Shown piece by piece: positions 9,860 through 29,766 of a stretch of DNA of 48,530 bases. The translations under genes were made by a program, and so were the position numbers. Origin of the DNA: an uncultured Bdellovibrionales bacterium (lineage in GTDB: Bacteria; Bdellovibrionota; Bdellovibrionia; Bdellovibrionales; Bdellovibrionaceae); the NCBI GenBank assembly GCA_903926205.1, contig CAIYID010000006.1, positions 1-48,530 of the forward strand, read 5' to 3'. The notes below the pieces were generated by a model that had not been told where the DNA came from, ran no database searches, and saw only the letters and a list, made by a program, of their open reading frames with translations. Within the stretch, counting starts at the first letter, position 1. Every line of letters begins with the position of its first letter.

Positions 9860-10729
9860 ATGAAGTTATTATTAATAAAATTTGCCATTCTACTGAGAGG
9901 TTGTTTTTTGCGAGCGAGAGCGCGCAGAGTGAAATCACTCAAACGAATGAAATCAATGGTGCTGACATTGATGATTATTTCAATTCCGCATTTGACGAGC
10001 GCCGCTAGTCAATCAAAGACAGAGGCAGCAAAAACACCTTCAAAGTTGGAGGCCTTGGGAGATAAAATGGCCGATTTAGTGGCGACGAAGGATGAGGTTG
10101 GAAAAATTTCAATGAAGATCATTGAGTCCGACGGTAGCCATAAAATTCGAGAGATTTCTTACTCTCGTTTGAATGAAAAACAATCGCATTTTACCATCAT
10201 GCGGATGATGTCTCCGAAAGACATTAAGGGGACTTCTTTATTGAGTGTCATTAAAGGCGATGTGGAAGAAAAGTGGATTTATTTACCAAGTTCAAAACAA
10301 ACCCGAAAAATTGCAACCACGGATTCGAGTGCTCGAGTTCTAGATTCTGAACTGTACAGTGAGGATTTTGATATTGCGAATATCAAAGGGGTTCAAAGTA
10401 AAATCCTTAAAGAAGAAAGTGATGGAACACTTCAAATTGAAACAAAGTTAGCTTCCGCAAAAAGTTCCTACAGTAAAGCGGTGGCATGGGTGGGAAAAGA
10501 CAATCTTGTTAAAAAAACAGAGGTCTATGACAAAAAAGGAGCCTTACTTAAAATTGTTGAATTTCCAAAGTACGTGGATGTGGGGGGTGGAAAAAAAAGA
10601 GCCTCACAAATTAATATTACGAACGTTCAGAACAAACGAAAAACTGAGCTGACCTTGAATGCGGTGAAAGTGAATCAGAATTTAAAAGAGCGAGACTTCT
10701 CTACTCGCGCCTTGGCAGAGAGTTTTTAA
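9860..10729 (+). CDS. LolA-like outer membrane lipoprotein-sorting protein
   Basis: This 289-residue protein resembles the uncharacterised outer-membrane lipoprotein-sorting family (LolA-like fold, PF17131 type), periplasmic carriers usually found with RND transporters and thought to move lipids or lipoproteins. Supporting segments are SPKDIKGTSLL, WIYLPSSKQTRKI and SELYSEDFD in the middle third, then a repeating beta pattern to the end. The start at 9860 has a clear GGGAG site, but it places about 30 residues with many Arg/Lys and an extra hydrophobic piece before the signal sequence MKSMVLTLMIIS...TSAA. An internal ATG at 9947 would give a classical signal peptide but lacks a binding site. 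The stop lies 2 nt from the stop of the convergent MFS gene. Confidence 0.75.
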   Translation: MKLLLIKFAILLRGCFLRARARRVKSLKRMKSMVLTLMIISIPHLTSAASQSKTEAAKTPSKLEALGDKMADLVATKDEVGKISMKIIESDGSHKIREISYSRLNEKQSHFTIMRMMSPKDIKGTSLLSVIKGDVEEKWIYLPSSKQTRKIATTDSSARVLDSELYSEDFDIANIKGVQSKILKEESDGTLQIETKLASAKSSYSKAVAWVGKDNLVKKTEVYDKKGALLKIVEFPKYVDVGGGKKRASQINITNVQNKRKTELTLNAVKVNQNLKERDFSTRALAESF

Positions 10730-10731
10730 AA

Positions 10732-11949: not shown

Positions 11950-12050
11950 CCTTGGGAGTATAGAATTCAATGATTAACTATTGCAATCATCTAAATTAAT
12001 TTTGCGATCATCTTAACTGCGCTCCTAACTAAAAAAACAATAAAATCTAC

Positions 12051-12079
12051 TTTTCATTTTTTCGAGGCAGGCATAGATT
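12051..12079 (+). promoter_or_regulatory. Candidate promoter of the RND gene
   Basis: TTTTCA (12051-12056), a 17-nt spacer and TAGATT (12074-12079) form a fair sigma-70-like pair. The predicted transcription start near 12086 is only a few nt before the ATG at 12089, which lacks a near Shine-Dalgarno. The message may therefore be nearly leaderless. This is pattern matching only. Confidence 0.3.
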
Positions 12080-12088
12080 GTCGAAACT

Positions 12089-15000: not shown

Positions 15001-15232
15001 TTCCATGGCGACCATTGTCGGTGCTTTGCCAGAAGCCTTGGCGCGAGGAGAAGGCTCGGAGGTGGTTCGACCGATGGCTATCACCGTTGTGTTCGGAGTT
15101 GCTCTGTCGACCGTTCTTACCTTATTTGTCGTTCCCTGTGGATATTTGATTATGTCTCGTTTTGAAGACAAGAAACACGCCAAGGAGTTGGCCGACTCTT
15201 TGGCTGCCATCGACGAGGCGGCTCTCGCGTAG
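12089..15232 (+). CDS. AcrB-like RND efflux transporter (HAE1 family)
   Basis: At 1047 residues this matches the full length of AcrB-type inner-membrane pumps. It has an N-terminal helix, two large periplasmic loops and two groups of membrane helices. The proton-relay residues are visible: adjacent Asp405-Asp406 in helix 4 (GVVVDDAIMVLENI) and Lys934 in helix 10 (GIVKKNSILLVEF). RND pumps of this type trade protons for export of drugs, detergents or lipids and need a periplasmic adaptor and outer-membrane channel. No adaptor or TolC-like gene is in this window, so it must use partners elsewhere or the nearby envelope proteins. It is divergent from the MFS gene and convergent with the 22-haem cytochrome gene. 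Confidence 0.93.
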   Translation: MTLSDISIRRPVFAWMLMAGLLVFGAISYSTMGISQLPDVDFPFVNISVTWAGASPDVMESAVADIIESAVMSVDGIQLVQSNSQQSMTTITIQFSLDQDVNVALQQVQTKVSQAQRNLPQTIDPPIITKTNPGDQPILWTAAYQKDGNIRDLALFVRNHLKDTLTTVKGVGDVSMGGYVEPQMRIWMYSEKMKAKDITFQDIIDAVNGEHQLSPTGYQDSGPKESYVRVHSEFENAKQCEDLVFPARKGMPTYKAVRVGEVARCEEGTDEVRRISRYNRIQPTIGLGIIKQRGTNAVAIGDAVRAKIAALNSSLPAGINMGIVTDSTVFIKQSINGLLLNLMMSVLLTAIVCYLFLGTLSSAFNVILAIPVSLVGSFIVLRALNFTVNSFTLLGLSLSIGVVVDDAIMVLENITRHVEMGKHRMHAALVGAREITGAATAASLAILAIFIPVVFMQGIVGKFFFQFGVTISVAVLISLLEALTLAPMRCSQFLKIRSDNRVTESVRQFMDYLAIKYKSSLSWCLPRRGWILGGSLFIFAISLFLVKFLQKELVPAQDQSRFLVTIYTPMGSSIVLTNDVFKEAEKVYSSRPEIQTSYVAVGGFGGGLVNQGISFITMKDIGQRPVMEPFTKQPSQVEFMAYLRKELEKIQNVSRVAILDLSQTGFSGQRGYPIEFQVQGPDWEKLAEVSLNIRKKLKESGYMADVDSDYNPNMPEIEIYPDREKASRHGVPVSSVSQAVAAMVGGMKLLPNKYTDSSGHRDDIQVKLVADQNQGPADINKIQVRNVMGWPVPLSELIDVKSGSTLLTITRYNRERGIGVFGNPAPGKSQGEVIDAVQKVTKDILPSGYHITMSGNSQAMAESNNSLMVALILGIFVAYMVLASQFNSFIHPLVILLALPFSVTGALLGLWMTGTSLNIYSLIGILLLMGIVKKNSILLVEFTNHKRAEGFDVMEALIEACPIRLRPILMTSMATIVGALPEALARGEGSEVVRPMAITVVFGVALSTVLTLFVVPCGYLIMSRFEDKKHAKELADSLAAIDEAALA

Positions 15233-15276: not shown

Positions 15277-17901
15277 CTAGTGACAAGTTTTGCAAGGCAT
15301 GTAGGTGGATTTTTTACTGGAGATATTTCCACCCCAGCTTCTGGGATGACTGCCTCCGGAATTGAAAGAGTGACAGCCTGAGCACGACCCAACTTTCGAG
15401 GAACCCACTTTGTGATCATAAACTCCACCAGCCCAGGACACGCCCAAGTTGGCGGCAGGAGCGGCAACAGCGGTGCTACTACTTGGAGTCATCACCCACA
15501 GTGTTGATGAAGTTTGGTTTCCGTGGCAAGCCGCGCAGTCAGCAGAACTATAAGAGCTTGAGTGAAGATATTTGTCTGTGGTCATTCCCACAGGCATGAC
15601 TGTGGTGCTAGCCGGAGCGTCGCTTGCATGGCAAGCAGCACAAGCAGTAACTCCAGAAGTGACGGTGGTATGGAATTTAGAAGCTGTCACCCAAGTGTTT
15701 GAGGCCCCCATGCTTGTGTGACATTTTGAGCAGTCGGAAGTGACACTCGCAGCAGTGTGAGAGAAATGTTGTGGATAACCACTTCCTCCTGCTGGGGTAT
15801 AGGTCACCGACGAAGTCGATAAAGTTTGAGGCATTTTTACAAAGTGGCAGCTCGTGCAAGTTCCGATGGAATTAGAGCCAGAATTTGTATGGAAGCTCGC
15901 ACCATTCCAGCTAGTACCAACAGCATTGCTATGGCAAGCCGCGCAGTCTTGCGCTGCAAGCACAGTGCTGCCGCTTCCATAGACAAAGGCATGATTCATA
16001 TCGACGGGATCTGTGGAGCCAGTCACTGGTCCAACAATTCCGCTCGGCACTCCCCCAGGATTGTGACAAGGAGTGCAGGTGGTTGGCTGAGTCGAAATCG
16101 ATTTGTGATAACGAGTTCCACTTGTTGCTGTCGTTCCAGCAGTGTGACAAGTGGCACAGGAATTTAAAGTTCCCGCCGGAACAACGGAGTGAAGCATTTG
16201 TTGAGGTAAAGAAACCGTGGCTGTTGAGGTCGTGGCCGTGCTATAACTTTTTCCAGCAACATAATTCAGAGTTGTTACATTCATTGACCATAAATTCCAA
16301 GCCGAACCCGTGCCACTGACCAAACCAGAAGGTGTTGAGGACGCTCCTCCCCATCCTGTGAGCGCGGTAAAGTTCGGGGAACTGGTATGGCAACCGACGC
16401 AGTCTTGCCCACCGTAACTTGAGTGATCTTGGTAAACCAATCCCGTACCTGTAATATTAGGAGCTGTTGCGGAAGTGGGATAAGTATGACAACCAAGACA
16501 GCTTGCTGGAGTAGGGCTGTGGGGAAAATTTCCACCTGACCAGTTACTCATTGTTGTGAAGACTCCAGCCGTGATCGTCGAGCTGTGGCAAGAATAACAG
16601 TCTGTACTCGAAGCATGAGTTCCAAAGTTAAAAGTTGTGGAGGTGTTCGACCAAGTGGTTTGAACCCAGCCCATTGTGTTACTAGGACGTTGTGTTTCGT
16701 GGCAAGCCTCGCAGGAATTCATCCCAGTGTGATTGAAACTTCCGGTTCCCACCCATGTGGAGTAATTATTTGTCGTCGAAGTCACAGCACTGTGGCAAGC
16801 CAAACAATCGGTCAGGCCTCCATTATTGGCGTGATTAAATCCAGTGGTGCCAACGTTTCCAGTTGGACGATTGTTGGCGTGACAATCGAGGCAAGAGCTT
16901 GGCTGGCTCAGACTTGCAGATGAAAGTGCTGAGTGGAACCTGGCCCCGGACCAAACTGTGCCAACCGCGCTTTTATGGCAAGTGACGCAATCTTGGGTCA
17001 CAATTTTCGTCGTCGTTGGCGCGGTGACGGCACCACTCGTTGACCAAGCGACGGCTTCGTGACGCATTTCTGCACTAGCCGGTGAGCGACTGGCTCCTGC
17101 AGGACCAATAAAACCGACAGGATTTCCGCTGCTGTGACAATCAAGACATTGAGTGGGTTGAACGCCGCCAGCGGGAACAATGGAGTTGTGAAAGACGGCT
17201 CCGGCATAAGAACCACTGGCTGCACCAGAGTGACAATTGGTGCAGGTGTCAATCAGAGTTCCTGAAACAAGAGAAGTGGTATGAAGCATTTGTTGTGGTA
17301 AAGAAACAGTGGCGGTCGCAACTGAGAGAATGGTGACTCCACTGAATCTTGGCGTTCCCACAACTGAGGTGAGTGCGACATTGCCAATCAATCCTGTCGG
17401 CATCATTTGTCCGCCAGCCCAATCCGCCGAAGTATTATATTGATTAGTGCTTTGAGCATGACAAGCAAAACAATCCCCCTGGCCGCTCTGTGAATGGTTG
17501 AAAGGGGGATTACCAACAGAGTTTGTTGGGCGCTCAGCATTATGACAAGTCGAGCAGGTTGATGGTTGAGGGGCATGGGTAAAAGAGCCTCCCGCCCAGC
17601 TCACTCCGATAGAATTTTTGTGACAAAGGAAGCAGTCACCTTGTCCTCCAAAGGATGCAGAGCCATGATCGAAAGCCGCCGGAGAGCCAACAAGTCCTGC
17701 GGGGCGCTGGGCAACATGGCAAAGGCCGCAGGAGGTTTCTTGTCCTGTGTGTAAAAAACCTGTGATTGCAAATTGAGCATTTGCAATTTTTGGTTTTTGC
17801 ACACTGCAATTCATGAAAAAGGGCAGAGCTAAAGTGAGGATGAGAGCCGTCAAAGCTCCGCAAAAATAATGTCTAGGAAATTTCCCCTGAGTATTTGCCA
17901 T
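15277..17901 (-). CDS. Secreted 22-haem multihaem cytochrome c
   Basis: The 874-residue product contains 22 CXXCH haem c binding motifs spread along its whole length (about one per 40 residues), plus many other His that could be distal ligands. The last motif CKTCH ends the protein. The N-terminus is hydrophobic; only Cys14 and Cys32 lie outside CXXCH motifs, and Cys32 (FFMNCS) could be a lipidated Cys, although the lipobox is atypical. Gly/Ser/Thr-rich linkers join the haem motifs, as in outer-membrane or extracellular electron carriers. Two stretches carrying SLPQQMLH show an internal duplication. It is divergent from the barrel/30-haem pair and should be matured by the ResB/CcsA system encoded downstream. 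Confidence 0.9.
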   Translation of the reverse strand: MANTQGKFPRHYFCGALTALILTLALPFFMNCSVQKPKIANAQFAITGFLHTGQETSCGLCHVAQRPAGLVGSPAAFDHGSASFGGQGDCFLCHKNSIGVSWAGGSFTHAPQPSTCSTCHNAERPTNSVGNPPFNHSQSGQGDCFACHAQSTNQYNTSADWAGGQMMPTGLIGNVALTSVVGTPRFSGVTILSVATATVSLPQQMLHTTSLVSGTLIDTCTNCHSGAASGSYAGAVFHNSIVPAGGVQPTQCLDCHSSGNPVGFIGPAGASRSPASAEMRHEAVAWSTSGAVTAPTTTKIVTQDCVTCHKSAVGTVWSGARFHSALSSASLSQPSSCLDCHANNRPTGNVGTTGFNHANNGGLTDCLACHSAVTSTTNNYSTWVGTGSFNHTGMNSCEACHETQRPSNTMGWVQTTWSNTSTTFNFGTHASSTDCYSCHSSTITAGVFTTMSNWSGGNFPHSPTPASCLGCHTYPTSATAPNITGTGLVYQDHSSYGGQDCVGCHTSSPNFTALTGWGGASSTPSGLVSGTGSAWNLWSMNVTTLNYVAGKSYSTATTSTATVSLPQQMLHSVVPAGTLNSCATCHTAGTTATSGTRYHKSISTQPTTCTPCHNPGGVPSGIVGPVTGSTDPVDMNHAFVYGSGSTVLAAQDCAACHSNAVGTSWNGASFHTNSGSNSIGTCTSCHFVKMPQTLSTSSVTYTPAGGSGYPQHFSHTAASVTSDCSKCHTSMGASNTWVTASKFHTTVTSGVTACAACHASDAPASTTVMPVGMTTDKYLHSSSYSSADCAACHGNQTSSTLWVMTPSSSTAVAAPAANLGVSWAGGVYDHKVGSSKVGSCSGCHSFNSGGSHPRSWGGNISSKKSTYMPCKTCH
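15888..16228 (-). repeat. Internal duplication in the 22-haem cytochrome, C-terminal copy
   Basis: This copy runs from TATVSLPQQMLH through three haem motifs (CATCH, CTPCH, CAACH) to GTSWNGASFH. The partner copy at about 16930-17318 has the same order of landmarks: SLPQQMLH, CTNCH, CLDCH, CVTCH, GTVWSGARFH. The DNA around SLPQQMLH is also nearly identical in the two copies, so the repeat is a gene-internal duplication of a three-haem block. Confidence 0.7.
16930..17318 (-). repeat. Internal duplication in the 22-haem cytochrome, N-terminal copy
   Basis: Partner of the block at about 15888-16228. Both copies encode SLPQQMLH followed by three CXXCH motifs and a closing W-x-G-A-x-F-H. This copy is somewhat longer between the second and third haem motifs. 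Boundaries are approximate. Confidence 0.7.
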
Positions 17902-18022
17902 TCCAATAATTATCTCATGTCAGTTAGAAAAATAAAAATTTTTGCTTTTAAGTTCTCAAAGTGAGGCAAAGAAAAAGCGCGACTTGAGTCCAGCTGACGA
18001 CTTTGAACTGTAAATAAAATCG

Positions 18023-18050
18023 TTGGTTTTTTCTAGATTTTCCATACAAT
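18023..18050 (+). promoter_or_regulatory. Candidate promoter of the barrel/30-haem cytochrome operon
   Basis: TTGGTT (18023-18028) and TACAAT (18045-18050) are 16 nt apart. The -10 is only 8 nt from the GTG start at 18059, which has no Shine-Dalgarno, so the transcript could be leaderless. It lies in the 157-nt divergent gap with the 22-haem cytochrome gene, so both transcripts may be controlled from here. No regulator site is obvious. Confidence 0.4.
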
Positions 18051-18058
18051 GAGTTGAC

Positions 18059-19396
18059 GTGAAAATTTGGCTAAATTATCGACATTTTTCTATCACATTC
18101 CTTTTCTTAATTGTTTCAATTTCGACCAGCGCCGCTGAGCAATTTGGTCGATTTAGTGTGGGTGCCTTTTCCTCCACGGAAAAGTTTAACTCAACTGCCG
18201 ATGGGGCTCCCGAAAACGATGCTCAAAATTTTCTCGGACGCATGTATTTGCGAGTGGCTGATATTGAATCTGGACACTCGGAGTTTGTCGCCGATCTTCG
18301 AGATAATTACGACATGTTTGGAACGCTCAATATGACTCAGCAACAATTGGATTCAAAAAATGCTTTTCAAGCTCGAACCATTTACGTTGGAAATTTTCCA
18401 GCAAAAAACAAATGGAATTATGAAGTGGGTCGATTTTCCTTAATGGAAACGGGAGGGACTTTCACGGATGGACTGGTGGTGCAACATCATTTCACTGAGG
18501 CCAGTCGTCTGGGCATTTTTGGCGGAGCCAACCCTTACTCTGAGGCTGATCAGCTGGTGGAATATGTTCCTCATGCGATAGATATGGGAATTTATTTTTC
18601 CTATGAGCCAAATGAGCCTCGTGCGGTAAAAAACTTTTTTATGAATTTTGCGCTTGTGCAGAATCAATACAGTTCGGAAGTTGATCGTCAGTATTTTTAC
18701 GAAAATATCTATTATCAATGGGGACCAAAATCGAGAATTCTAACCACAGGCTATTTGGATTTTGTGCCAACGACCAAATTACAAACGGGCACCTTCAATT
18801 ATGATCAAAGAGTGAATGATCGGCAGACCAGTCATCTTCATCTGCTCGCCGTTGATACGATCACATATCGCCGCCTTCAAAATATTCGTTCAACTTTACC
18901 GGCGAGTCCCTACGAGCAAGGACAGCTCTATTGGGATTTTCTTTGGGGACGAGATAATATGATTCAGCCGATGGTCACCTATGGTCATCGAGAGGTCGAT
19001 GGATTGACGAAGAATGAAAATCGACTCAATGTTATTTTCAATGATTTTGAAGATCATCGATTAGACGCAAATTTTTATATAGGGCAAAGAAGTAATTTTG
19101 TTTCACAAGATTTGTTCGCTGGGCTCGGTGGAGGATTTTACTCAGCAAAATGGGAATTTTCAGGGGATTTGCAATTAGCGCAGGAAAACTATTCCGCTCA
19201 AGTTTTACACCCCATAACCGCAACAGCCAATGTCAGCTATGTGCAAAATCGTGATCTTTTTTATGTCGCTAGTCTTGAGTATGCGCAAGACGAAAATGTC
19301 GTTATTTGGGCCAATTTTTTGAAATTGACCTATCGGTTTGGCTCTAAAGAAACAGCTCCACTTCGCGACGGTGCTCCAACCAAAGGCGCTTTATGA
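18059..19396 (+). CDS. Outer-membrane beta-barrel protein coupled to 30-haem cytochrome
   Basis: The 445-residue product begins with a signal peptide (to about STSAA) and continues as alternating amphipathic strands rich in Tyr, Phe, Asn, Asp and Gln, with no Cys or CXXCH. The strand pattern suits a barrel of 16 or more strands. The stop overlaps the ATG of the 30-haem cytochrome as ATGA (19393-19396), so the two are translationally coupled. Known porin-cytochrome conduits place a barrel gene next to multihaem cytochrome genes, and this arrangement suggests the same role here. I see no specific MtrB signature, so the family is open. A short polar tail follows the last strand. GTG is the start. 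Confidence 0.75.
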   Translation: MKIWLNYRHFSITFLFLIVSISTSAAEQFGRFSVGAFSSTEKFNSTADGAPENDAQNFLGRMYLRVADIESGHSEFVADLRDNYDMFGTLNMTQQQLDSKNAFQARTIYVGNFPAKNKWNYEVGRFSLMETGGTFTDGLVVQHHFTEASRLGIFGGANPYSEADQLVEYVPHAIDMGIYFSYEPNEPRAVKNFFMNFALVQNQYSSEVDRQYFYENIYYQWGPKSRILTTGYLDFVPTTKLQTGTFNYDQRVNDRQTSHLHLLAVDTITYRRLQNIRSTLPASPYEQGQLYWDFLWGRDNMIQPMVTYGHREVDGLTKNENRLNVIFNDFEDHRLDANFYIGQRSNFVSQDLFAGLGGGFYSAKWEFSGDLQLAQENYSAQVLHPITATANVSYVQNRDLFYVASLEYAQDENVVIWANFLKLTYRFGSKETAPLRDGAPTKGAL

Positions 19397-21942
19397 TGAA
19401 CAGGCTTTTTTTTCAAAGATCTTTGTTCGGGCGTTTTCACTTAAATCTGTTTGTGATGTTTTTCATGGTTTTGCTGGTGGGAGTTTCCATTTCGTTGAGT
19501 GCAATTGCCCAAGATGAAGGTTTGATGAATCGATTATTTGCCCCGGGACCACTCACACGGGGACATGATCAACTCGAAGGCCCTAGCGATTGCAAGAAAT
19601 GTCATGAGTCGGGAAAAGGGGTCACCGATTCAAAATGTTTGGAATGTCATAAAGAGCTTGGCTCTTCTATTGAGGCGAAGCTGGGCTATCATGGACTTAT
19701 CAGTGAAGCTTGCTCGAAATGTCATTCGGATCATAAGGGGCGAGAATTTGAGTCCGCTCATTTTGATAGTAAGACTTTTGATCATGGGAAAACCGGTTAT
19801 AAATTGACGGGAAAACACCACGATTTAAAATGCCAAGAGTGTCATAAGGAAAAGCGCGGGGCGAAACGAAATCGTCCATTGGAAATAAAGTTTTTTGGCG
19901 CAGCCAACTCTTGTAAAGTTTGTCACCAAAAGCAGGATATTCATTTCTTCCAAGGGGAATGGGCGAAAAAGGACTGCGGTGCTTGTCATGGTTTGAACAA
20001 ATGGGATGAAGACTTAAAGTTTGAGCATAAACGAGATACCAAATTTAGTCTTGAAGGGTTCCACGGATTTTTGGAGTGTCAAGAATGTCATAACCCAACC
20101 TCCTTGGCTCAGAAGAAAGTTATTTACAAGTGGCCCAAATTAGCGACATCTCAGTGTTTAAGTTGTCATGAAAATTTTCATCGCGAGAACTTAAGCCCGA
20201 AATTTCAAAATGGAAAATGTCAGTCTTGCCACAATCAAGAAGATTGGAAAATTCGAAAGTTCGATCATCAGCTGACGCATTATCCTCTGCGAGGCAAGCA
20301 TGCGGAGATCGATTGTCTTGACTGTCACCTCAACGCGAAATTGAAAGCAAAAACGACGCTCGACGCAAGAACCGCACCAACAAAAAAATTCGCGGAGCTA
20401 AAAAATCCCAATATCAAATGGACTGGACTCGGAAAACAGTGTTTATCTTGTCATGAAGATTTCCACCGATTTGGTCACTATAAATCTCCCACCAAAACTA
20501 AATATGAAAACTGTTTAAGCTGTCACAATGAATCCAATTGGAAAAAACTTCATGACTATAGTCACGCCGCAAGCACGCGATATATTATTGATGGTGAGCA
20601 TAGAAAATTAAAGTGTTCAGACTGCCATCTGGCTCAAAATAAAAAACCAATATTAAAACCGAATCCAGGAATTTACGTCTGGCCTAAGTTGTTAGATAAA
20701 ACCTGTGAAAATTGTCATAAAAATCCTCACCTCGAAAAATTTTCTAAAAAAATGCTGCAACAAAAATGCACCGAATGCCATGTGACCGATGGCTGGCAAG
20801 TTGTAAAAACTGGAAAAGATTTTGATCACAATAAGACAAAGTTTTCGCTGACAGGCAAGCACATCAAAGCCACCTGCACTCAGTGCCATGTGAAAAATAA
20901 AGTTCAAGTGTTTCATTGGACTTCACCGGATCAAGGGTACTGTGTCGAATGTCATCAAAATGTTCATAAAGAACAATTTCATGATAAATTTAATTCCCAA
21001 AGCTGCTTGGAATGTCATGACACGAACACTTGGTCTAAACGCAAAGCTTTCGATCATAATACTGCGGCCTATTTGTTAGCGGGAGCTCACACCAAAGTAG
21101 AATGTTCTGTTTGTCATACAGTCACTCCAGAGCTTTTTCCGATCAAGCCGTTGAAGCATATGTCTTTATTTAAATTCCCAGGTTTTGAAAAAGACAAGTG
21201 TCTGGCTTGTCATAAGGATGTACACGCGGGCCAGCTTGGTAACGACTGCACGAAATGTCATAACGATAATTCCTGGAAAAATACGAAGTTCAATCATCAA
21301 ACTCAGTCGAAATATCCACTTTTAGGAAAACATGCCGAGGCAAAATGCGTGAAATGCCACAAGCCAAGGGGGCAAGATGCCGGTCAAGAGAAAGTGATTG
21401 ATTTCAAGAAAGTCGTGACAGTTTTACAATATAAACCGCTCACGGTTCAGTGCGGCGGCTGTCATAAAGATATTCATAAAGGGCATTTTGGGGCTCAGTG
21501 TGCAAGCTGTCACTCCGAGCAGGCCTGGAAGACCACCAAAGATTTTCATAAAGATTATTCTCTTGTAGGAGTTCATTTCACTTTGCAGTGCACGGAATGT
21601 CATGGACAGAATCGCAAATTGGCTGGTTTGAGTCGAGAGTGTATTTTTTGCCACAAAAAAGATGATGTTCACTCAGGTACCTTGGCTGATTGTGAAAAAT
21701 GCCATCTGCAAGTTTATTGGGAAAATTCGAAGTTCAGGCATTCAATGACCACCTTTCCTCTCAAGGGAGCGCATCGCACTCTTCATTGTCAAGATTGCCA
21801 TCAGAGGGGCGTGTATCAAGGGTTGTCCTCTGAATGTATTTCCTGTCATTTGTCGACCTATCAGGGAGCGACGACACCCGTGAGTCACGCTGGCTTCAGC
21901 ACGACCTGCACACAGTGTCACCATAGTCCGTTTAGGTGGTAG
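19393..21942 (+). CDS. 30-haem multihaem cytochrome c
   Basis: Thirty CXXCH motifs lie in 849 residues (about one haem per 28 residues), and I see no Cys outside them. A hydrophobic N-terminal segment (about 16-40) is a signal peptide or anchor ending SAIAQ. About nine modules repeat the pattern FDH, T/S, aromatic, L, G-x-H, then C-x-x-C-H, with an intervening CXXCH...H pair, so each module carries about three haems. The many spare His suit bis-His ligation and a long haem chain. The high Lys content gives a positive charge. It is translated in an ATGA overlap with the barrel gene. Likely roles are periplasmic storage or conduction of electrons or transfer across the outer membrane. Confidence 0.92.
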   Translation: MMNRLFFQRSLFGRFHLNLFVMFFMVLLVGVSISLSAIAQDEGLMNRLFAPGPLTRGHDQLEGPSDCKKCHESGKGVTDSKCLECHKELGSSIEAKLGYHGLISEACSKCHSDHKGREFESAHFDSKTFDHGKTGYKLTGKHHDLKCQECHKEKRGAKRNRPLEIKFFGAANSCKVCHQKQDIHFFQGEWAKKDCGACHGLNKWDEDLKFEHKRDTKFSLEGFHGFLECQECHNPTSLAQKKVIYKWPKLATSQCLSCHENFHRENLSPKFQNGKCQSCHNQEDWKIRKFDHQLTHYPLRGKHAEIDCLDCHLNAKLKAKTTLDARTAPTKKFAELKNPNIKWTGLGKQCLSCHEDFHRFGHYKSPTKTKYENCLSCHNESNWKKLHDYSHAASTRYIIDGEHRKLKCSDCHLAQNKKPILKPNPGIYVWPKLLDKTCENCHKNPHLEKFSKKMLQQKCTECHVTDGWQVVKTGKDFDHNKTKFSLTGKHIKATCTQCHVKNKVQVFHWTSPDQGYCVECHQNVHKEQFHDKFNSQSCLECHDTNTWSKRKAFDHNTAAYLLAGAHTKVECSVCHTVTPELFPIKPLKHMSLFKFPGFEKDKCLACHKDVHAGQLGNDCTKCHNDNSWKNTKFNHQTQSKYPLLGKHAEAKCVKCHKPRGQDAGQEKVIDFKKVVTVLQYKPLTVQCGGCHKDIHKGHFGAQCASCHSEQAWKTTKDFHKDYSLVGVHFTLQCTECHGQNRKLAGLSRECIFCHKKDDVHSGTLADCEKCHLQVYWENSKFRHSMTTFPLKGAHRTLHCQDCHQRGVYQGLSSECISCHLSTYQGATTPVSHAGFSTTCTQCHHSPFRW

Positions 21943-21943
21943 C

Positions 21944-22513
21944 TTATTTTAATGACTGAAGGTAATTCAGATTGGCAGGTTCCATCCAATTCATGGCCCC
22001 AGAAATTTTTTTTATCAGATGCATTTGTGAGTCAAAAATAAAAGTTTCAGGAAATTGAAAAACACCCAAAGTTTTCGATACAGATTTTGTTTGATCCCAA
22101 TATTTAAAAGAAGTGGGAATTTGAGGGTTGAGTTGTTTGAAAAAATTCAAAGCATCTTCTGCTTTGTCATCTTCGGAAATAAGCAAGAGGTCTACTGTTG
22201 GGGCCAGCTTTGATTGCGCTGCTAATAATGTGGGCAGTTCGGTTTTGCAGGGGCCACACCAAGAAGCCCAAAAGTGCAGGATGACAATTTGTCTCGAACC
22301 AGGATTTGGTTTTGGAAGATTTTCAGAAGGATCTATGGATTGAAGCGTGTCGAGTGGCAGTTGAACAACGGAAGATTTTTTACTTGAAAACCAGAGAAAA
22401 GAAAGAAAGAGTAGAGCCAACAACCCGGCAAGAATGTAACGGAAGCGAGTCAATGATTTTAAATTGACGTCTGTGGTGTTCTTGTTCGTGGTATTCTTAT
22501 CCGTGGAATTCAT
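21944..22513 (-). CDS. Membrane-anchored TlpA/ResA-like thioredoxin
   Basis: A polar N-terminal stretch (1-23) precedes one membrane helix (about 26-42), then a periplasmic thioredoxin fold with HFWASWCGPCKTELP carrying the redox pair CGPC. The late cis-Pro region FQFPETFIFD is also present. Such proteins (ResA, CcmG, TlpA) reduce the disulphide of apocytochrome c haem motifs before haem attachment. The location between 30-haem cytochrome and ResB/CcsA genes supports exactly that job. It is on the opposite strand to them, one nt from the cytochrome stop and divergent from resB. No good Shine-Dalgarno is seen before the ATG at 22513. Confidence 0.85.
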   Translation of the reverse strand: MNSTDKNTTNKNTTDVNLKSLTRFRYILAGLLALLFLSFLWFSSKKSSVVQLPLDTLQSIDPSENLPKPNPGSRQIVILHFWASWCGPCKTELPTLLAAQSKLAPTVDLLLISEDDKAEDALNFFKQLNPQIPTSFKYWDQTKSVSKTLGVFQFPETFIFDSQMHLIKKISGAMNWMEPANLNYLQSLK

Positions 22514-22543
22514 ATCGTGGATGATATACAGGGGAATTGTTCA

Positions 22544-24424
22544 ATGCTGAAGAAAATAATGAAAAAAATGTTCTATTTTATGGGCTCAATCAAACTCGCT
22601 GTTCCGGTGTTGTTGATTCTTGCGCTGGTCGTGGCGATAGGAACCGTGATCGAAAGCCGTTACAATGCTGAATATGCGAAATTGCTGATCTATAAAAATG
22701 AACTTTTTGGAGCTTTGCTGTGCTTGATTTGGCTCAATGTTCTTTTCGCGGCTTTGACGCGCTGGCCTTGGAAACGTTACCACCTGGGATTTTTAATCAC
22801 TCATTTAGGTTTGTTGCTGATTTTCGGCGGTGGGTTCTTGACCAACAATTATGGCATTGACGGCATGTTGCGAGTTGTTGAAGGGCAGAGTTCGAAATAT
22901 GTTGTTCTTCAAAGTTTGGTTGTTTCGGCTCGTAGTGGAACCGATTCAACGGCCATTGAGTTTGAGATTCCACGTTACCTCTTTGAAAAAGGGGAGTCCA
23001 CTTTTTCGACAATGAATGAGGGCTTTAAAGGTTTGGCCGTAGTGCGTGGTTATATGCCATTTGCCGACGTTAAAGAAGTTTTAAAGGCTTCTGCTTCTCA
23101 AGAGACACGAGAGCCTTTTGAGGTTCAGCTGCGAATAAAAAGTGCGATGTTTAATGTCGAACAAGGTTTGAATTCTCAGACGCAAAATGAATTACAAATG
23201 GGACCCGCTCTTTTTCGACTCCTGAAGGCCAGCGATTTGGGTCGTAAACCAAATTCTGTGGAGGCCTCTGTAAAAGACACAGGGAAAGCTTCGGCGAAAC
23301 GAACAATCACTGCAGAGCCAGCGTCAGGTCATGCCCTTTTGAATTTAAAGGTCGGGGCTTCGGAAAAACACCTTGATGTGAAAAAAGCGAAGGATTCAAC
23401 GATTACGATAGGCAATTATAAGGTAAAAATAAAAGCAGTGATGAGTCACGCTGCAGTTGTTAACAATGGTTTACGTGAAAGCCCGGAAAGTAAAGTCAAT
23501 CCGGCTCTGGTGGTTGAGATCACTGATGGAAAAGAAACCATCAAGGAAGTTTTGTTTGCAAAATTCCCTAAATTTTCTGTTCGAAAAGGAAAATTTTCTG
23601 ATTTGGAGTTGAGTTATTCCTCTGCTGAAGTCGAGAGCTCAAACGATGAAGTCGCCTCTCATGGCACCGGTGCTGGTGCCAATTCCGAAAGCCAATCTTC
23701 CGCAATGGAAGGATCCGTTTCGAGTTCGAAACCTAATGGCAATGAAGTTCGAATCTACTATTCTCCAACCGACTCAAAACGAGTGCTGATCCAACTCTGG
23801 AAAGCTGGCAAAAAAGCAGCAGAAAAATATTTGGCGGAAAATGAAACTTATCAAACTCCGTGGATGGGAATGGAATTAACGGCGTTAAAAATGTCTTGGA
23901 ATGCGGAAAAAGAAATTCAAGTGACGCCAACGACTCCTTCAGAGAAAATGGATCAACTTCCTTCCAGCGCGGTGAAAGTCGGTCGCTATGATGGAGCGCC
24001 TTCCGAAGACGTTTGGATGCCAGAAGGAGCAGAACGCTCTTTCGGTATAGATGGAAAAGAATATTTTATTTATTATGGACGAAAAATAATCGAGCTTCCT
24101 TTCGCTGTGGAATTAAAATCATTTAGTAAAATTGATTATCCGGGAACCAGAACGCCGAAGGAATTTGAAAGCCATGTTCAAGTTTCTGGACAGTTTGTGC
24201 CTGTGACAGTTTCAATGAATGAACCTTTGCACTTCAAGGGTTACACTCTTTATCAAGCGAGTTACGAGCCGATGCCTGACGGTAAATTTGCTTCTGTTTT
24301 TTCTGTGAATTATGATCCGGGTCGTCCCTTCAAATACGCCGGTGGAATTGTATTAGCCTTAGGAATTATTCTTTTAACATTATCGAAAAGTCGTCGCATG
24401 AAAGAAATGGGGTTCAGATTATGA
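22544..24424 (+). CDS. resB: ResB/Ccs1-like System II cytochrome c biogenesis protein
   Basis: The start at 22544 is chosen for its AGGGGAA site; a GTG at 22517 in the same frame has none. The 626-residue protein has membrane helices near the N-terminus (about 17-37, 50-66, 74-95), a very large periplasmic domain, and a last helix (about 595-615), as in ResB/Ccs1. The end of the soluble domain carries the usual ResB segment (ELKSFSKIDYPGTRTPKEFE; EPLHFKGYTLYQASYE). With CcsA it moves haem across the membrane and attaches it to CXXCH motifs. A Ser/Lys-rich middle part (about 250-420) is probably poorly conserved. The stop overlaps the ccsA start (ATGA at 24421). Confidence 0.9.
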   Translation: MLKKIMKKMFYFMGSIKLAVPVLLILALVVAIGTVIESRYNAEYAKLLIYKNELFGALLCLIWLNVLFAALTRWPWKRYHLGFLITHLGLLLIFGGGFLTNNYGIDGMLRVVEGQSSKYVVLQSLVVSARSGTDSTAIEFEIPRYLFEKGESTFSTMNEGFKGLAVVRGYMPFADVKEVLKASASQETREPFEVQLRIKSAMFNVEQGLNSQTQNELQMGPALFRLLKASDLGRKPNSVEASVKDTGKASAKRTITAEPASGHALLNLKVGASEKHLDVKKAKDSTITIGNYKVKIKAVMSHAAVVNNGLRESPESKVNPALVVEITDGKETIKEVLFAKFPKFSVRKGKFSDLELSYSSAEVESSNDEVASHGTGAGANSESQSSAMEGSVSSSKPNGNEVRIYYSPTDSKRVLIQLWKAGKKAAEKYLAENETYQTPWMGMELTALKMSWNAEKEIQVTPTTPSEKMDQLPSSAVKVGRYDGAPSEDVWMPEGAERSFGIDGKEYFIYYGRKIIELPFAVELKSFSKIDYPGTRTPKEFESHVQVSGQFVPVTVSMNEPLHFKGYTLYQASYEPMPDGKFASVFSVNYDPGRPFKYAGGIVLALGIILLTLSKSRRMKEMGFRL

Positions 24425-26067
24425 AATATTTATTGAGTCTATTGCTGCTCTGCTCAGGCCTAGCGGCTCGAGCCGATTTTATCTTTGATCAGTTCATCGC
24501 AAAAGCTCAAAGCCTTCCCTATGAAGAATTACGAGGTCTGCCACTTTTAAACAATGGACGGATCAAACCTCTGGAAAGCTTGGCCAAAGAAACTTCTATT
24601 TACCTCACCGGGTCTTATCAGTTCAAAGGACTCCATCCGATTCAATTACTTTTGGGCTTGATGATTTCAGATGATGGTGAAAATTTACAACTGATCGAGG
24701 TTCGCTCTCCAGAGTTACGGAAACAGTTAGGTCTTCCAACACCAGAGTCCCGGCGTCATTACTCATTAAAAGAGTTAATGTCTGCGAATTTGGAAAGTTT
24801 GGCTTCGGCCTTAATGGAAAAACAAAAAGTCAATAAACGAAGTTTGACAGAAGTTGAGAATAAAACAATTGAGACTTATGAGCAAACTTGGATGTTTCAA
24901 CAAGCTCGCAATGGCGCTTTGTTACTCGGCGCCATGGAGCCGGCTCAAGCCGCGACAGATCCGGCACAAACACCACAAAGTTCAGCTGTGGTGGATGAAT
25001 TTAAATTACTCATGCAGGCTCTTTCAACAAAAGACAGCGTCGAATATCAAAAGCATGCGGCAGAGCTGAAACAAAAATTAAATGCTCAGAATTGGCCAGA
25101 ACCTGTGAGAGCGCAGCTTTCAAATATTGATCGTGAACTTTTCTATCAACAGTACAAACCCTTTCGCTGGGCTTGTTGGATATTTTTCCTTTTTGCTTTT
25201 TTAATGGTGTTTCCTAAATCCAATGAGTGGGTATTTAAGACGGTACCAAAAACAATTTCCGCGACGCTTTTGTTTATTCCTCTTATTTTCCTCGCTCTTG
25301 GTTTTTACATTCGGGTGTCAATCACAGGATTTGCGCCGGTGACAAATATGTACGGCACGATGATTTGGGTGGCCCTGGGCGTGGGTTTCTTTGGTTGGAT
25401 TTTTTATCTCATTTATCGAAATGGAGTTTTCTTAGCGCTGACCTATTTCGGGGCTTTTTGTCTTCTTTTGATCACGGAGCAAATGCCTTTGGTGATCAGT
25501 CCGGACATGGATCCCATCGTTGCAGTTTTAAGAAGTAATTTTTGGCTCACGATTCATGTTCTGACGATCACGATTTCCTATGCAGCATTTAGTATTGCGA
25601 TGTTGTTAGGAAACACGATGATCATTCGTGATCTGTTGAAAAGAAATAATGTGGAGTGGATCAAAACTTACGGCCACTTTTGCTACCGTACCATTCAGTT
25701 GGGTGTCTTTTTGCTGTCGATTGGAATTATTTTAGGTGGAGTGTGGGCGGATTACTCATGGGGAAGATTTTGGGGATGGGATCCAAAAGAGACTTGGGCG
25801 TTGATTGCAGATCTCGGGTTCTTGATTCTTCTGCATGCACGATTAGTGGGTTGGGTTGATTTGTATCGACTGTTACTACTTGCTCCTTTGTCCTATTTAC
25901 TGGTGATCATGGCTTGGTATGGTGTGAACTTTATTTTAGCGACAGGCCTTCACTCCTACGGCTTTTCTAGTGGTGGCGCGCAGATAGTGACTGTGTTTGT
26001 TAGTGTGCAATTATTACTTATTTTTGGTTCATTCTTCACTCGAATGCTGAGAGCCAAAAAGGTTTAA
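24421..26067 (+). CDS. ccsA: CcsA/ResC-like haem handling protein of System II
   Basis: Eight or so membrane helices surround the tryptophan-rich haem-binding WWD segment (WGRFWGWDPKETW) close to the C-terminal end, with the flanking His in LTIHVLTITISY and GLHSYGF. This identifies the haem exporter/lyase subunit that works with ResB. At 548 residues it is longer than most stand-alone CcsA. The extra length is an N-terminal signal-like segment plus about 220 residues predicted to lie in the periplasm, including KPLESLAKE. Some lineages keep such an extension, but its role is unknown to me. The ATG at 24421 overlaps the resB stop, and the next gene follows at once. Confidence 0.92.
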   Translation: MKYLLSLLLLCSGLAARADFIFDQFIAKAQSLPYEELRGLPLLNNGRIKPLESLAKETSIYLTGSYQFKGLHPIQLLLGLMISDDGENLQLIEVRSPELRKQLGLPTPESRRHYSLKELMSANLESLASALMEKQKVNKRSLTEVENKTIETYEQTWMFQQARNGALLLGAMEPAQAATDPAQTPQSSAVVDEFKLLMQALSTKDSVEYQKHAAELKQKLNAQNWPEPVRAQLSNIDRELFYQQYKPFRWACWIFFLFAFLMVFPKSNEWVFKTVPKTISATLLFIPLIFLALGFYIRVSITGFAPVTNMYGTMIWVALGVGFFGWIFYLIYRNGVFLALTYFGAFCLLLITEQMPLVISPDMDPIVAVLRSNFWLTIHVLTITISYAAFSIAMLLGNTMIIRDLLKRNNVEWIKTYGHFCYRTIQLGVFLLSIGIILGGVWADYSWGRFWGWDPKETWALIADLGFLILLHARLVGWVDLYRLLLLAPLSYLLVIMAWYGVNFILATGLHSYGFSSGGAQIVTVFVSVQLLLIFGSFFTRMLRAKKV

Positions 26068-26070
26068 TTG

Positions 26071-26913
26071 ATGGCGAAATATTTTCTCAGCTTGTGGGCT
26101 ATCTTGAGCGCGTTGATAGCCTTTGAGCTTTATCGATTGCATAGAAACCCTGAGCATTCGATGTTGTTTTATTTGCAAACGCGACATTTGCTCAAAGCAA
26201 AATTCGATCTTTCACCAGATCCTGGTCGTACTCTTAGTTTATGGTTTGGCTATGTGGGCTTTGGTTTAATGCTGCTGACAAATTTATATATTATCAGAAA
26301 ACGTCTGAACTTTTTTCGTCAACTGGGAGTTCTAAAAAACTGGCTTGATTTTCATATATTTTGTGGCTTGATGGGGCCGACACTCATTCTTTTTCATTGT
26401 GATTTTAAAGTGCGAGGCTTGGTGGCCATCAGTTTTTGGAGCATGATTGTTTCACTGTCGAGCGGAATTGTCGGTCGATATGTCTACACTCAAATTTCCA
26501 AATTAAAAGGCGACTTCGTTCGTGAAGCTGAGGCCTACAATCGACGAATCAGTGCCTTGATTGAACATAAAGAGCTTGAAATTTCTGAAGAGGAACTCGC
26601 TCACTATCGAACACAAGCTTTGGAAGCAGCAGGAGGTCGTCAGGTTTCAAACAATCCAATGATGGCTCTTACCAGCTCTCTTATTGGTGATGTTAAAATG
26701 AGACTCCTTTCGACTCTAGCCCCAGCGGCTATGGGACCAGCGGGGGAATTATTTTTTCGCGAATACGCCGTGAATATGAGAAAAGCAAACACGGTCGATT
26801 CCTTCAATCGCCTGATGGGTTACTGGCATACTTTTCATACACCCTTTGCGGTCTTTATGTATCTTGCGGCAGTTCTTCATATTGCTGCCGAGTTTTGGTT
26901 GGGCGCCGCTTAG
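26071..26913 (+). CDS. Probable di-haem cytochrome b membrane protein
   Basis: This 280-residue membrane protein has about five hydrophobic segments. Two of them carry His pairs exactly 14 residues apart (H95/H109 and H256/H270), the H-x13-H spacing used for two stacked b haems in cytochrome b and ferric reductase families. A charged helical stretch (about 145-190) separates the two halves. The start at 26071 has AAAGG upstream and lies right after the ccsA stop, so it belongs to the resB-ccsA operon. I infer transmembrane electron transfer between a cytoplasmic donor, perhaps the Fe-S/flavin protein encoded next to it, and the periplasmic cytochromes. I do not recognise a named family. Confidence 0.65.
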   Translation: MAKYFLSLWAILSALIAFELYRLHRNPEHSMLFYLQTRHLLKAKFDLSPDPGRTLSLWFGYVGFGLMLLTNLYIIRKRLNFFRQLGVLKNWLDFHIFCGLMGPTLILFHCDFKVRGLVAISFWSMIVSLSSGIVGRYVYTQISKLKGDFVREAEAYNRRISALIEHKELEISEEELAHYRTQALEAAGGRQVSNNPMMALTSSLIGDVKMRLLSTLAPAAMGPAGELFFREYAVNMRKANTVDSFNRLMGYWHTFHTPFAVFMYLAAVLHIAAEFWLGAA

Positions 26914-26953
26914 CGAGTTAGTCAAAAATAAATTGAAAATAACTTGGCTCAAC

Positions 26954-28303
26954 CTAAGCGGGTTTAGAAAAGCCTTCACCAAATTTTTTATCGATAGCAA
27001 CGCCCAGGCTCATAAGAAATTTAAATGGAACCTCGGCACCGGCGAACACAAAGAGAAAATCGTTATTCAAAGTCACCACGTGATCCTCGTGTTTAACTTG
27101 CAAAGTTTTTTCCTCGATTTTTTCAACTGAGGAATTATACCAAATTTTGATAAGTCCATTTTTTTCCATGTTCAAAATTTTTCTTTGATTTTCCTCATTG
27201 CAACGATCAAAGGACGCCCCTCGTAAGAGGAGATGCACTCGATTGTAAAATTTCGAGGCGGCCAGGGCTTGCGCGGCCTCGACTCCCGCATTACCTCCAC
27301 CCACGACAACGATATCCCTGTCAGTGTATTGTTCTGCGTCGATCAAATTATAGGTGACCTTCGGCAAATCTTCGTTCGGAAGGCCTAAGCGGCGTGGGCT
27401 TCCGCGAACTCCAAGAGCAAGAATTAATCGCTTAGTTGTGACTATTCCCATGGAGGTATTAACCTCAAAAGTTCCGTTCGGCAAAGTTCGAAAGTTTTCA
27501 AAGCGACAACTTTCTTTGACCTTCAAACCTGTATTTTGGCGAACTTGATTCCAATAGCTTAATAAGTTTTCTTTACTGATTTTATTTGTCGAAAATTTCA
27601 TGGTGCCGACCAAGGGAAGTTCGGCGGGATGGGACATAACTATTTTTTGGCGTGGAAAATTATAAACCGTTCCGCCAAATGAGTTTTGTTCTATGAGATA
27701 ATATTTTTTATTCAGCTTTATGGCTTGTAAACCAGCGGCAATTCCTGCCGGACCGGCGCCGATGATCATCAGATCATAGTCCGCAGTCACACCAGATTTA
27801 ATATTTGAAAGTGCATGGTTTGCCGCAAGACTTCCTTGTTTGACTGCGTTTCGAATTAAGCCAGTGCCGCCCAATTCCCCCGCAATATAAACTCCTGGAA
27901 CATTAGTTTCATAGTTTGAAGTCACTCGCGGGATATCCATGCCACGAGTTTTAGTTCCGAAAACTAGAGTGAGCGCGCCCATAGGACAAATCGCTTCGCA
28001 TTGACCGTGACCCACGCATTTAGTTGGAGTGACTAGCGTGGCTTTGTTGTTTACGAGCTGGAGGATATCGCCTTCTGGGCAAGCTTTTGTGCAACTACCA
28101 CAGCCCACACAAAGGTCTAAGTTGACCTCTGGGTGCAAGGTCACGGGCTCATTCGTTTTTGTTGCGACTGAGTTTTGTAATTTGGTTTTTGCTTTTAATT
28201 CTTTCTTTTTAAATTTCGTCAGACGACTGGACCAAAAAATCAAGCCGATGCCGAGAAATGATATGACTTCGATATGGTCCAGAACCATTTTTTTCAAGGA
28301 CAT
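26954..28303 (-). CDS. Membrane-anchored ferredoxin-type Fe-S/FAD/NAD(P) oxidoreductase
   Basis: Residues 9-26 form a membrane helix. Two ferredoxin-like cluster sites follow: C65, C68, C71, C75 and then C96, H99, C102, C106, where the second usual Cys is His. A short segment ETNVPGVYIAGELGG and a thioredoxin-reductase-like flavoprotein come next, with GAGPAG (182-187) for FAD and GGGNAG (335-340) for NAD(P)H. The CxxC redox centre of true thioredoxin reductases is absent. It would take electrons from NAD(P)H and pass them through Fe-S centres, or run in reverse. AGGAG lies upstream of the ATG. It is convergent with the cytochrome b gene, 40 nt apart, and may feed it. Confidence 0.8.
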   Translation of the reverse strand: MSLKKMVLDHIEVISFLGIGLIFWSSRLTKFKKKELKAKTKLQNSVATKTNEPVTLHPEVNLDLCVGCGSCTKACPEGDILQLVNNKATLVTPTKCVGHGQCEAICPMGALTLVFGTKTRGMDIPRVTSNYETNVPGVYIAGELGGTGLIRNAVKQGSLAANHALSNIKSGVTADYDLMIIGAGPAGIAAGLQAIKLNKKYYLIEQNSFGGTVYNFPRQKIVMSHPAELPLVGTMKFSTNKISKENLLSYWNQVRQNTGLKVKESCRFENFRTLPNGTFEVNTSMGIVTTKRLILALGVRGSPRRLGLPNEDLPKVTYNLIDAEQYTDRDIVVVGGGNAGVEAAQALAASKFYNRVHLLLRGASFDRCNEENQRKILNMEKNGLIKIWYNSSVEKIEEKTLQVKHEDHVVTLNNDFLFVFAGAEVPFKFLMSLGVAIDKKFGEGFSKPA

Positions 28304-28488: not shown

Positions 28489-29766
28489 TCACGGCTGATT
28501 ATTTTTTTTTCCGAGATGCAATTGGTAGGTTGAGGGAAGTTCCTTGGTGTTAGGAGTTGTTAAACCACCCTTTTGGACGTTTAAAATAAGATTTGTTACA
28601 AACTTCGGATTTACAAAAATTTTAATGTTGGTCTCATAATCAGAAAAGAATCCATGACGATTGAGTGAACACAGAGTCAGTTGTTTGCTGCTAGCACAAT
28701 CAAGATCGACATGATTTCCTGGAAAACCAAAACCCTTGGCTGATCCGGCAAAGGAAAAACTAGCATCTAAGAGTGGAGCCATATTGAATTCGACATCGCC
28801 GTGGTCCACGTTGATAAGTAGATTATCGATTCTAGATTTTGGCTCTGAGTATTGCAAATCTTTGTAAAAAGGACTGGCCAGTAAAAGTGTTGTGACGGTA
28901 AAGATTGCCAATAAAATGTATAGAATATAGCTCAAACCTTTTTTGCGATCAAAAAATTGAGTCATCCAGGCTAACTTCGGAGATGCGGTGTAGAGTTGAT
29001 CTTCTCGCTGCGGAATTTTTAGTACAAAGTAGTAAAGCCAAAAGCCTGAAAACCAAGTCATGAGAGCCGCCCAGAAGACATCAGAGAGGAAATGGCCGCC
29101 GTCGGCCATGCGACCGATACCCATGGCGGTTCCAAGAACCACAGAGCCAAGCAATGAGGTGATACCAAGTCGTAAGTTCCTTCGTCGAAAAATCCACCAA
29201 AAAATCGTAAAGGTAAAACCCACCGAACAGTGACCGCAGGGAAAAGATTTTCCGGGTTGTCCAAAGGCTGGCGTATAAAAAGTGCGGTATTCGTATCGTC
29301 CACCTAATTCAATGACTTCTCTCGGTCGAGGACGTCCCCAATAAGGTTTAAAAATTGAGTTCACCATTAAGCCAGGTCCGAGCATCACGGTCAAAAGAAC
29401 ATAAATGGCATAAACTCTCAATTTTTTAAACTCTGGTTTAAATTGAGCCAGCAGCAAAACACTCAAACTACCAAGAAGAAGTGCTCCCGTAAACCAAGGG
29501 GCGGCATGATAGAAAAAATTCCATAATAGATCGTGAGCCTCAAACCAAGGGTCCTTAATATTTTCAGGATGATAGAAAAAATGCGCAAACCTAAGATCCA
29601 AAGAATTATCACGAAAAAGAATCACCACTGCCAATGTCAATATCAACAGAATAATTAATTCTGGAATCCAAAGTTTTCGATAATTTTTTTTTTTTTGGCT
29701 AGTCATGATTTTCATTCGTTTATTGATGAAATTAGGTGGTGAAGCGGACTTTCGCAAGCGAAACAT
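28489..29766 (-). CDS. PAP2 family phosphatase with C-terminal beta domain
   Basis: A membrane phosphatase of the PAP2 superfamily, which removes phosphate from lipids such as undecaprenyl pyrophosphate, phosphatidic acid or lipid A. All three motifs are visible: KPYWGRPRP, FPCGHCS (usually PSGH; Ser is replaced by Cys) and GRMADGGHFLSDV with the catalytic His and Asp. About six helices are followed after residue 295 by a soluble, probably periplasmic beta-rich domain of about 130 residues. The start is uncertain: 29766, 29715 and 29706 are all ATG without a clear ribosome binding site. A run of 13 A in the coding strand (plus 29684-29696) lies near the 5' end. Confidence 0.85.
   Translation of the reverse strand: MFRLRKSASPPNFINKRMKIMTSQKKKNYRKLWIPELIILLILTLAVVILFRDNSLDLRFAHFFYHPENIKDPWFEAHDLLWNFFYHAAPWFTGALLLGSLSVLLLAQFKPEFKKLRVYAIYVLLTVMLGPGLMVNSIFKPYWGRPRPREVIELGGRYEYRTFYTPAFGQPGKSFPCGHCSVGFTFTIFWWIFRRRNLRLGITSLLGSVVLGTAMGIGRMADGGHFLSDVFWAALMTWFSGFWLYYFVLKIPQREDQLYTASPKLAWMTQFFDRKKGLSYILYILLAIFTVTTLLLASPFYKDLQYSEPKSRIDNLLINVDHGDVEFNMAPLLDASFSFAGSAKGFGFPGNHVDLDCASSKQLTLCSLNRHGFFSDYETNIKIFVNPKFVTNLILNVQKGGLTTPNTKELPSTYQLHLGKKNNQP

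Follow-up and report, generated by a model that had tools for sequence, protein, structure and literature searches.

The gene cluster described here likely encodes a trans-envelope electron conduit resembling PCC3, the putative porin-cytochrome c complex 3 that was predicted in 2017 and found in Fe(II) oxidizers (He et al. 2017, PMC5566968). The window, by which we mean the whole 48,530-nt stretch of DNA that was analyzed, comes from a nearly complete assembly of 3.34 Mb in 94 contigs; the cluster takes up approximately 13 kb of it (15277-28303). All eight genes are as earlier described, and the gene calls agree with the coordinates given then. The features are as follows:

15277..17901, minus strand: CytA, a 22-heme c-type cytochrome, predicted surface lipoprotein and counterpart of the PCC3 extracellular multiheme cytochrome (MHC)
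18059..19396, plus strand: predicted 22-strand outer-membrane beta-barrel, the putative porin of the conduit
19393..21942, plus strand: CytB, a 30-heme cytochrome, predicted to be periplasmic, with 8 central tri-heme units and end blocks
21944..22513, minus strand: TlpA/ResA-like thioredoxin, membrane-anchored, WCGPC
22517..24424, plus strand: ResB (CcsB) of System II cytochrome c maturation (PF05140, 3e-23)
24421..26067, plus strand: CcsA of System II cytochrome c maturation (PF01578, 1.2e-25)
26068..26913, plus strand: di-heme b-type cytochrome of the inner membrane, counterpart of the PCC3 IMP (two WX3HX13H motifs, SGXXG)
26954..28303, minus strand: Fe-S flavoprotein, membrane-anchored and YpdA-like (Pyr_redox_3, 1.6e-39; Fer4 matches)

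The genes for CytA, TlpA and the flavoprotein are on the minus strand and the remaining genes are on the plus strand, so the eight genes do not form one operon; the cytochrome b gene runs in the same direction as resB-ccsA. Scans of the window for promoters and terminators found sites no more numerous than in shuffled sequence. The preliminary description had listed a 22-heme and a 30-heme cytochrome, a barrel gene joined to the latter by an ATGA overlap, a TlpA-like protein, ResB, CcsA, a flavin/Fe-S oxidoreductase and a di-heme-type cytochrome b. CXXCH motifs numbered 22 in 15277-17901 (minus strand) and 30 in 19393-21942 (plus strand), the overlap was seen between 18059-19396 and 19393-21942, the two WX3HX13H motifs were present, and profile matches bore out the other four proteins. 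Adjoining cytA, at 9860-15232, are a LolA-like/DUF1329 lipoprotein-sorting homologue, an MFS-like transporter and an RND-type pump; these neighbors did not accompany the cluster in the relatives that were looked at. A PAP2 protein is encoded at 28489-29766 (minus strand), and its matches to the lipid A 4'-phosphatase LpxF were below the cut-off.

The gene set was conserved in Bdellovibrionota. When the barrel was used as the sole bait in 100 relatives, six further matches were obtained, five of them strong. The same eight genes, shuffled in order and orientation, were present in three genomes (G093, G034 and G017), and a fourth (G060) had all of the cluster genes except a recognizable CytA. 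Conservation of gene order in relatives had been suggested as a check on the locus; the gene set was kept and the exact order was not, which indicates selection for the gene set. Of 27 loci selected by the barrel, 25 also had CytB and the remaining two were truncated at a contig end; all 17 of the loci with full flanks had CytB. Among these 17, the flavoprotein was found in 16, another MHC in 15 and the IMP in 12, and no recognizable IMP lay in the fetched stretch of the other 5. Across 369 genomes of the phylum, the barrel was found in 28, the flavoprotein in 27 and a strong cytochrome b match in 27, each of the latter overlapping with the barrel in 27 genomes (Fisher 4e-40, a value that ignores kinship). 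Neither the flavoprotein nor the cytochrome b had a strong match without the barrel among the 369 genomes, and carriers were patchily distributed over at least 26 genera. We considered two weak barrel matches, G020 (37 bits) and G360 (29 bits), to be spurious and did not count them.

The heme motifs of both cytochromes far exceeded random expectation. CytA (874 aa, 22 CXXCH) gave a mean of 0.12 and a maximum of 3 motifs in 2000 residue shuffles, and CytB (849 aa, 30 CXXCH) gave a mean of 0.37 and a maximum of 4 in the same number; across the whole window, the four remaining reading frames together had 4. CytB begins with four hemes, continues with eight regular units of 3 CXXCH and 3 further His each, and ends with two hemes. 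There are 42 His outside the CXXCH motifs, which is enough for bis-His ligation of all 30 hemes. The number of hemes was 21, 24, 27, 30, 33 or 36 in 31 distinct barrel-linked CytB orthologues with one exception, a 20-heme protein whose gene is part of a reading frame interrupted by an in-frame stop. Taken with other periplasmic MHCs, the number moves by threes from 18 to 36. In Myxococcota the counterpart of CytB is apparently split into proteins of 20 and 10 or 23 and 13 hemes, with sums of 30 or 36; such pairs adjoin a fused flavoprotein-IMP in L062, L066, L082, L095 and L087, and a putative lipoprotein of approximately 1250 aa with 29 hemes is often beside Myxococcota heme-protein pairs. 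AlphaFold2 did not fold CytB (19 sequences, pLDDT 41.5) and the model was set aside. That CytB spans the periplasm is inferred, as is likewise done for PCC3 in a 2023 Gallionellaceae pangenome study (PMC10734462).

CytA had profile matches to Cytochrome_C7, MtrC/MtrF II-IV and c3. A PDB sequence search found no relative of CytA or of CytB. Residues 29-32 of CytA read FMNC (FFMNC in the window), a candidate lipobox in which the -1 Asn is unusual. Nearly all of the second MHCs in Bdellovibrionota clusters begin with a signal and a lipobox-like start of the [LVIF]xx[GASN]C type, and nearly all have a P-x-V ... F-x-H stretch after it. CytA is therefore predicted to be a surface lipoprotein. The possibility, raised in the preliminary description, that the cytochromes are soluble periplasmic sinks is disfavored for CytA, since the lipobox-like N-terminus of its orthologues predicts an outer-membrane or surface location. 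The heme count of this second, extracellular type of MHC differs freely from locus to locus. CytA stops exactly at its 22nd motif (CKTCH-stop, window position 15277), and the second MHCs of L058 and L129 have the same ending.

The barrel protein (445 aa) had no Pfam or NCBIfam match, and no relative was found in a PDB sequence search. AlphaFold2 (36 sequences) predicted a 22-strand barrel with a pLDDT of 85.3, and a plug domain was absent from the model. Structural searches of the model (Foldseek/VIA) returned only generic outer-membrane barrels among the matches listed, such as OccK and TonB-dependent receptors, and MtrB was absent among the 50 listed. These matches would suit a transporter unrelated to the cytochromes that merely adjoins them, an explanation that we consider very improbable. 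CytB occurs with the barrel in nearly every barrel-selected locus, usually by an ATGA overlap (the 4-base overlap was found again in most orthologous loci), and the model lacks the plug. In addition, the barrel family aligned with a profile of 17 PCC3 porins at 93.7% probability (hhalign, P 1.9e-7, 319 columns, 13% identity), compared to 0.2% for a reversed-profile control. A previous comparison with only 3 PCC3 porins had reached 79% and was too shallow, and it was repeated with the 17. The window barrel thus appears to be a remote homologue of the PCC3 porins, in their barrel half only. That the barrel protein might model as an unrelated channel had been named in the preliminary description as an outcome against the conduit; the prediction was instead of a 22-strand outer-membrane barrel with remote homology to PCC3 porins.

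PCC3 consists of a porin, an extracellular MHC (median 34 hemes), a periplasmic MHC (median 21 hemes) and an IMP, and was described from alpha-, beta- and gammaproteobacteria (He et al. 2017, PMC5566968). In the same account, the order porin, extracellular MHC, periplasmic MHC, IMP is "largely conserved" and not a definition, most of the porins have many predicted transmembrane strands (up to 42), and the extracellular MHC is rich in Ser, Thr, Ala and Gly with many hemes. The IMP has five transmembrane helices with SGXXG on the fourth and WX3HX13H on the third and fifth, from which two b hemes were argued, and it was likened to quinone-reactive cytochrome b (PMC5566968). The window cytochrome b (281 aa) bears these hallmarks in its sequence: W92-X3-H96-X13-H110, S132-G-X-X-G136 and W253-X3-H257-X13-H271. 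The four His and SGXXG were invariant in 29 aligned IMPs from Bdellovibrionota and from Bradyrhizobium and Marinagarivorans loci. By a simple hydropathy criterion, four of its five helices are recognized; the remaining one, TM3, bears H96 and H110. It had no curated Pfam family (DUF4405 was below the cut-off) and no notable match in a PDB sequence search.

In loci of Bradyrhizobium, Marinagarivorans and other Proteobacteria, both the periplasmic MHC and the IMP were matched by profiles built from the window family, the CytB profile scoring about 240-430 bits over whole 18-24-heme MHCs beside PCC3 IMPs. At the level of sequence, then, the IMP, porin and periplasmic MHC are homologous to those of PCC3. 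The fetched PCC3-type proteobacterial loci contained an 18-24-heme MHC, a larger or variable second MHC (up to 83 hemes), a porin of approximately 700 aa and an IMP. The window likewise has a porin, a very large MHC that is predicted to be extracellular and is low-complexity like those of PCC3, a large periplasmic MHC and a five-helix IMP of approximately 300 aa. However, its 445-aa porin lacks the N-terminal part of approximately 300 aa found in the proteobacterial porins; its periplasmic MHC has 30 hemes compared to the published median of 21; cytA is divergent from barrel-cytB, with the IMP gene after TlpA-ResB-CcsA; and the cluster holds CcsBA and TlpA and is in the phylum Bdellovibrionota. 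Because of the absent porin extension and the other gene order, we refer to it as a PCC3-like variant and not as a plain PCC3 member. Beside a PCC3-type IMP in another genome, from the class of Marinagarivorans (L221/L222; G586, C17:43021-55236, plus strand), was a 4071-aa open reading frame with 133 CXXCH motifs; the flavoprotein was not seen in the fetched stretch around it. This exceeds the 85-heme PCC3 protein of He et al. (2017, PMC5566968).

The resemblance to other systems was more limited. The layout of a porin-sheathed multiheme wire with a surface cytochrome is shared with MtrCAB, MtoAB and PioAB, and both window cytochromes show some match to the Pfam MtrC/F domain II-IV models and to the DmsE/MtrA models. 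However, DmsE/MtrA TIGR03508 failed with 72.4 and 50.4 bits against a cut-off of 192.2, the window wire has 30 hemes and not 10, and the inner end is a flavoprotein with a di-heme cytochrome b and not CymA. The MtrB barrel has 26 strands compared to the 22 predicted here. The analogy to porin-cytochrome complexes drawn in the preliminary description appears closest for PCC3, rather than for Mtr or, probably, Omb. MtrA and MtrB homologues were reported in magnetotactic Bdellovibrionota in 2026 (PMC13200544). NADPH oxidases and ferric reductases (FRE/NOX) also have two HX13H pairs on two helices and a cytoplasmic flavin NAD(P)H dehydrogenase that sends electrons outward via b hemes, a likeness seen at the level of layout; in contrast, the window flavoprotein is YpdA-like with Fe-S motifs, and its electrons would go to c-type hemes and not to O2.

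In the flavoprotein, an N-terminal transmembrane segment and positive residues come first and a ferredoxin domain with the motifs C65xxCxxCxxxCP and C96xxHxxCxxxCP comes second; the protein then continues with a YpdA-like FAD/NAD(P)H fold. Its PDB relatives were YpdA structures 7a76 and 7a7b (best E 1.8e-37, fold over about 260 residues). It shares this fold with YpdA, a bacillithiol disulfide reductase, but scores 159 bits against the TIGR04018 cut-off of 339.9 and has the additional N-terminal helix and ferredoxin domain. CxxHxxCxxxCP was present in 94 of 95 homologues (the pattern also allowed Asn in place of His); with His replacing the second Cys, it may bind a 3Fe-4S cluster or else provide an unusual set of cluster ligands. 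When the IMP alone was used to select 32 proteobacterial loci, 21 of them had the flavoprotein no more than 1.5 kb from the IMP, usually divergent, and the flavoprotein was present in 16 of 20 longer stretches chosen mostly from those loci. In Myxococcaceae and allied bacteria it was fused N-to-C to the IMP (L058, L059, L062, L065, L066, L074, L079, L082 and L095), and the reverse fusion, with the IMP first, was found in three other Myxococcales loci (L087, L090 and L093), where the transmembrane segment and positive residues are retained before the Fe-S motifs. Fusion in both orders, together with near-perfect co-occurrence, indicates that the flavoprotein is a core part. He et al. (2017, PMC5566968) name an Fe-S gene in their text for PCC4 only, and later PCC3 papers, PMC8788666 among them, speak of four genes. 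Since these accounts do not include the flavoprotein and it is present at IMP loci, we propose it as a fifth PCC3 component. In the main text of open-licence literature we found neither this flavoprotein associated with PCC3 nor PCC3 described from Bdellovibrionota, and both the YpdA-like Fe-S partner of the IMP and a PCC3-like system in this phylum appear not to have been described.

The maturation genes could suggest another role for the flavoprotein and cytochrome b, namely a supply of reductant for cytochrome c maturation (to apocytochrome thiols or heme), with the cytochromes serving as periplasmic electron stores. ResB, CcsA and TlpA are in the window cluster, and the flavoprotein has a fold belonging to the thioredoxin-reductase/YpdA group. 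However, CcsBA was found in 9 of the 17 full-flank loci and absent from 8 while the flavoprotein was present in 16, proteobacterial PCC3 loci with flavoprotein and IMP had no ResB or CcsA match in the fetched regions, the thioredoxin reductase CxxC is absent from the flavoprotein, and the barrel accompanies CytB throughout. We therefore consider this role improbable. TlpA, found in 5 of the 17 loci, matched Thioredoxin_8 (3.8e-12), with StoA/DsbE/ResA matches below the cut-off, and probably keeps apocytochrome Cys reduced. CcsA matched TIGR03144 with 136 bits (1.3e-39), under its cut-off of 187.6. The window ResB is a second copy in the genome. The other ResB-CcsA pair is on contig C78 (L147, G000:C78:41000-60000), and the window CcsBA and TlpA are therefore a second set, probably a dedicated one. 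The C78 pair adjoins genes for a pentaheme cytochrome and a 1070-aa protein, a gene pair resembling alternative complex III.

In the conduit that we propose, electrons would pass from NAD(P)H to the FAD of the flavoprotein at the inner face of the cytoplasmic membrane, and by way of the ferredoxin domain to both b hemes of the inner-membrane cytochrome (26068-26913). From there they would enter the CytB wire in the periplasm, the outer part of which would thread the barrel, and would then reach CytA and an extracellular acceptor such as a metal oxide, a humic, an electrode or another cell. ResB, CcsA and TlpA would attach the hemes. We infer complex formation, threading, the donor, the outward direction and the acceptor. 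The preliminary description had placed NAD(P)H at the inner end, and the flavoprotein-IMP fusions strengthen this part, while conduction, direction, substrate and the span of CytB stay conjectural. A flavoprotein beside or fused to the IMP predicts an NAD(P)H-linked conduit, and we give the outward reading a chance that is close to, but somewhat short of, even. Moving NAD(P)H electrons outward across the b hemes would cost membrane potential, so it is not obvious how energy would be gained.

Alternatively, the same conduit could have the quinone pool as its inner end and/or take up electrons from a donor outside the cell, Fe(II) for example, and carry them inward, with the flavoprotein as a side branch making NAD(P)H by reverse transfer. 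The quinone pool was proposed for PCC3 by He et al. (2017, PMC5566968), with its occurrence in Fe(II) oxidizers and an IMP like quinone-reactive cytochrome b, and such conduits may run both ways (Gallionellaceae pangenome 2023, PMC10734462). However, fusions of the flavoprotein and IMP exist in both orders, the two co-occur almost perfectly, both PCC3 clusters of Sideroxydans ES-1 were down-regulated on Fe(II) (PMC8788666), and inward flow to NAD(P)H would be uphill with its driving force unstated. This alternative is possible, though we judge it unlikely. Extending the outward reading to the family, we tentatively suggest, with confidence below even, that PCC3-type conduits are five-part machines common to Bdellovibrionota, Myxococcota and Pseudomonadota, in which a flavoprotein permanently coupled to the IMP would drive NAD(P)H electrons outside, bypassing the quinone pool, via a single periplasm-spanning cytochrome sized in tri-heme steps.

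PCC3 is itself a predicted system, and the putative window conduit is a variant of this predicted kind with a testable component and not a categorically new system. PCC3 has so far been an orphan of four predicted genes that lacked a donor, and an NAD(P)H-type flavoprotein supplies a candidate for its cytoplasmic end. This partner suggests an extracellular electron route tied to NAD(P)H and not to quinol alone. The three-heme steps in CytB offer a way to ask how the length of the wire follows the width of the periplasm. Finally, the window belongs to a member of the Bdellovibrionaceae, a relative of predatory Bdellovibrio, and a PCC3-like system is now placed in the phylum of these predatory bacteria.
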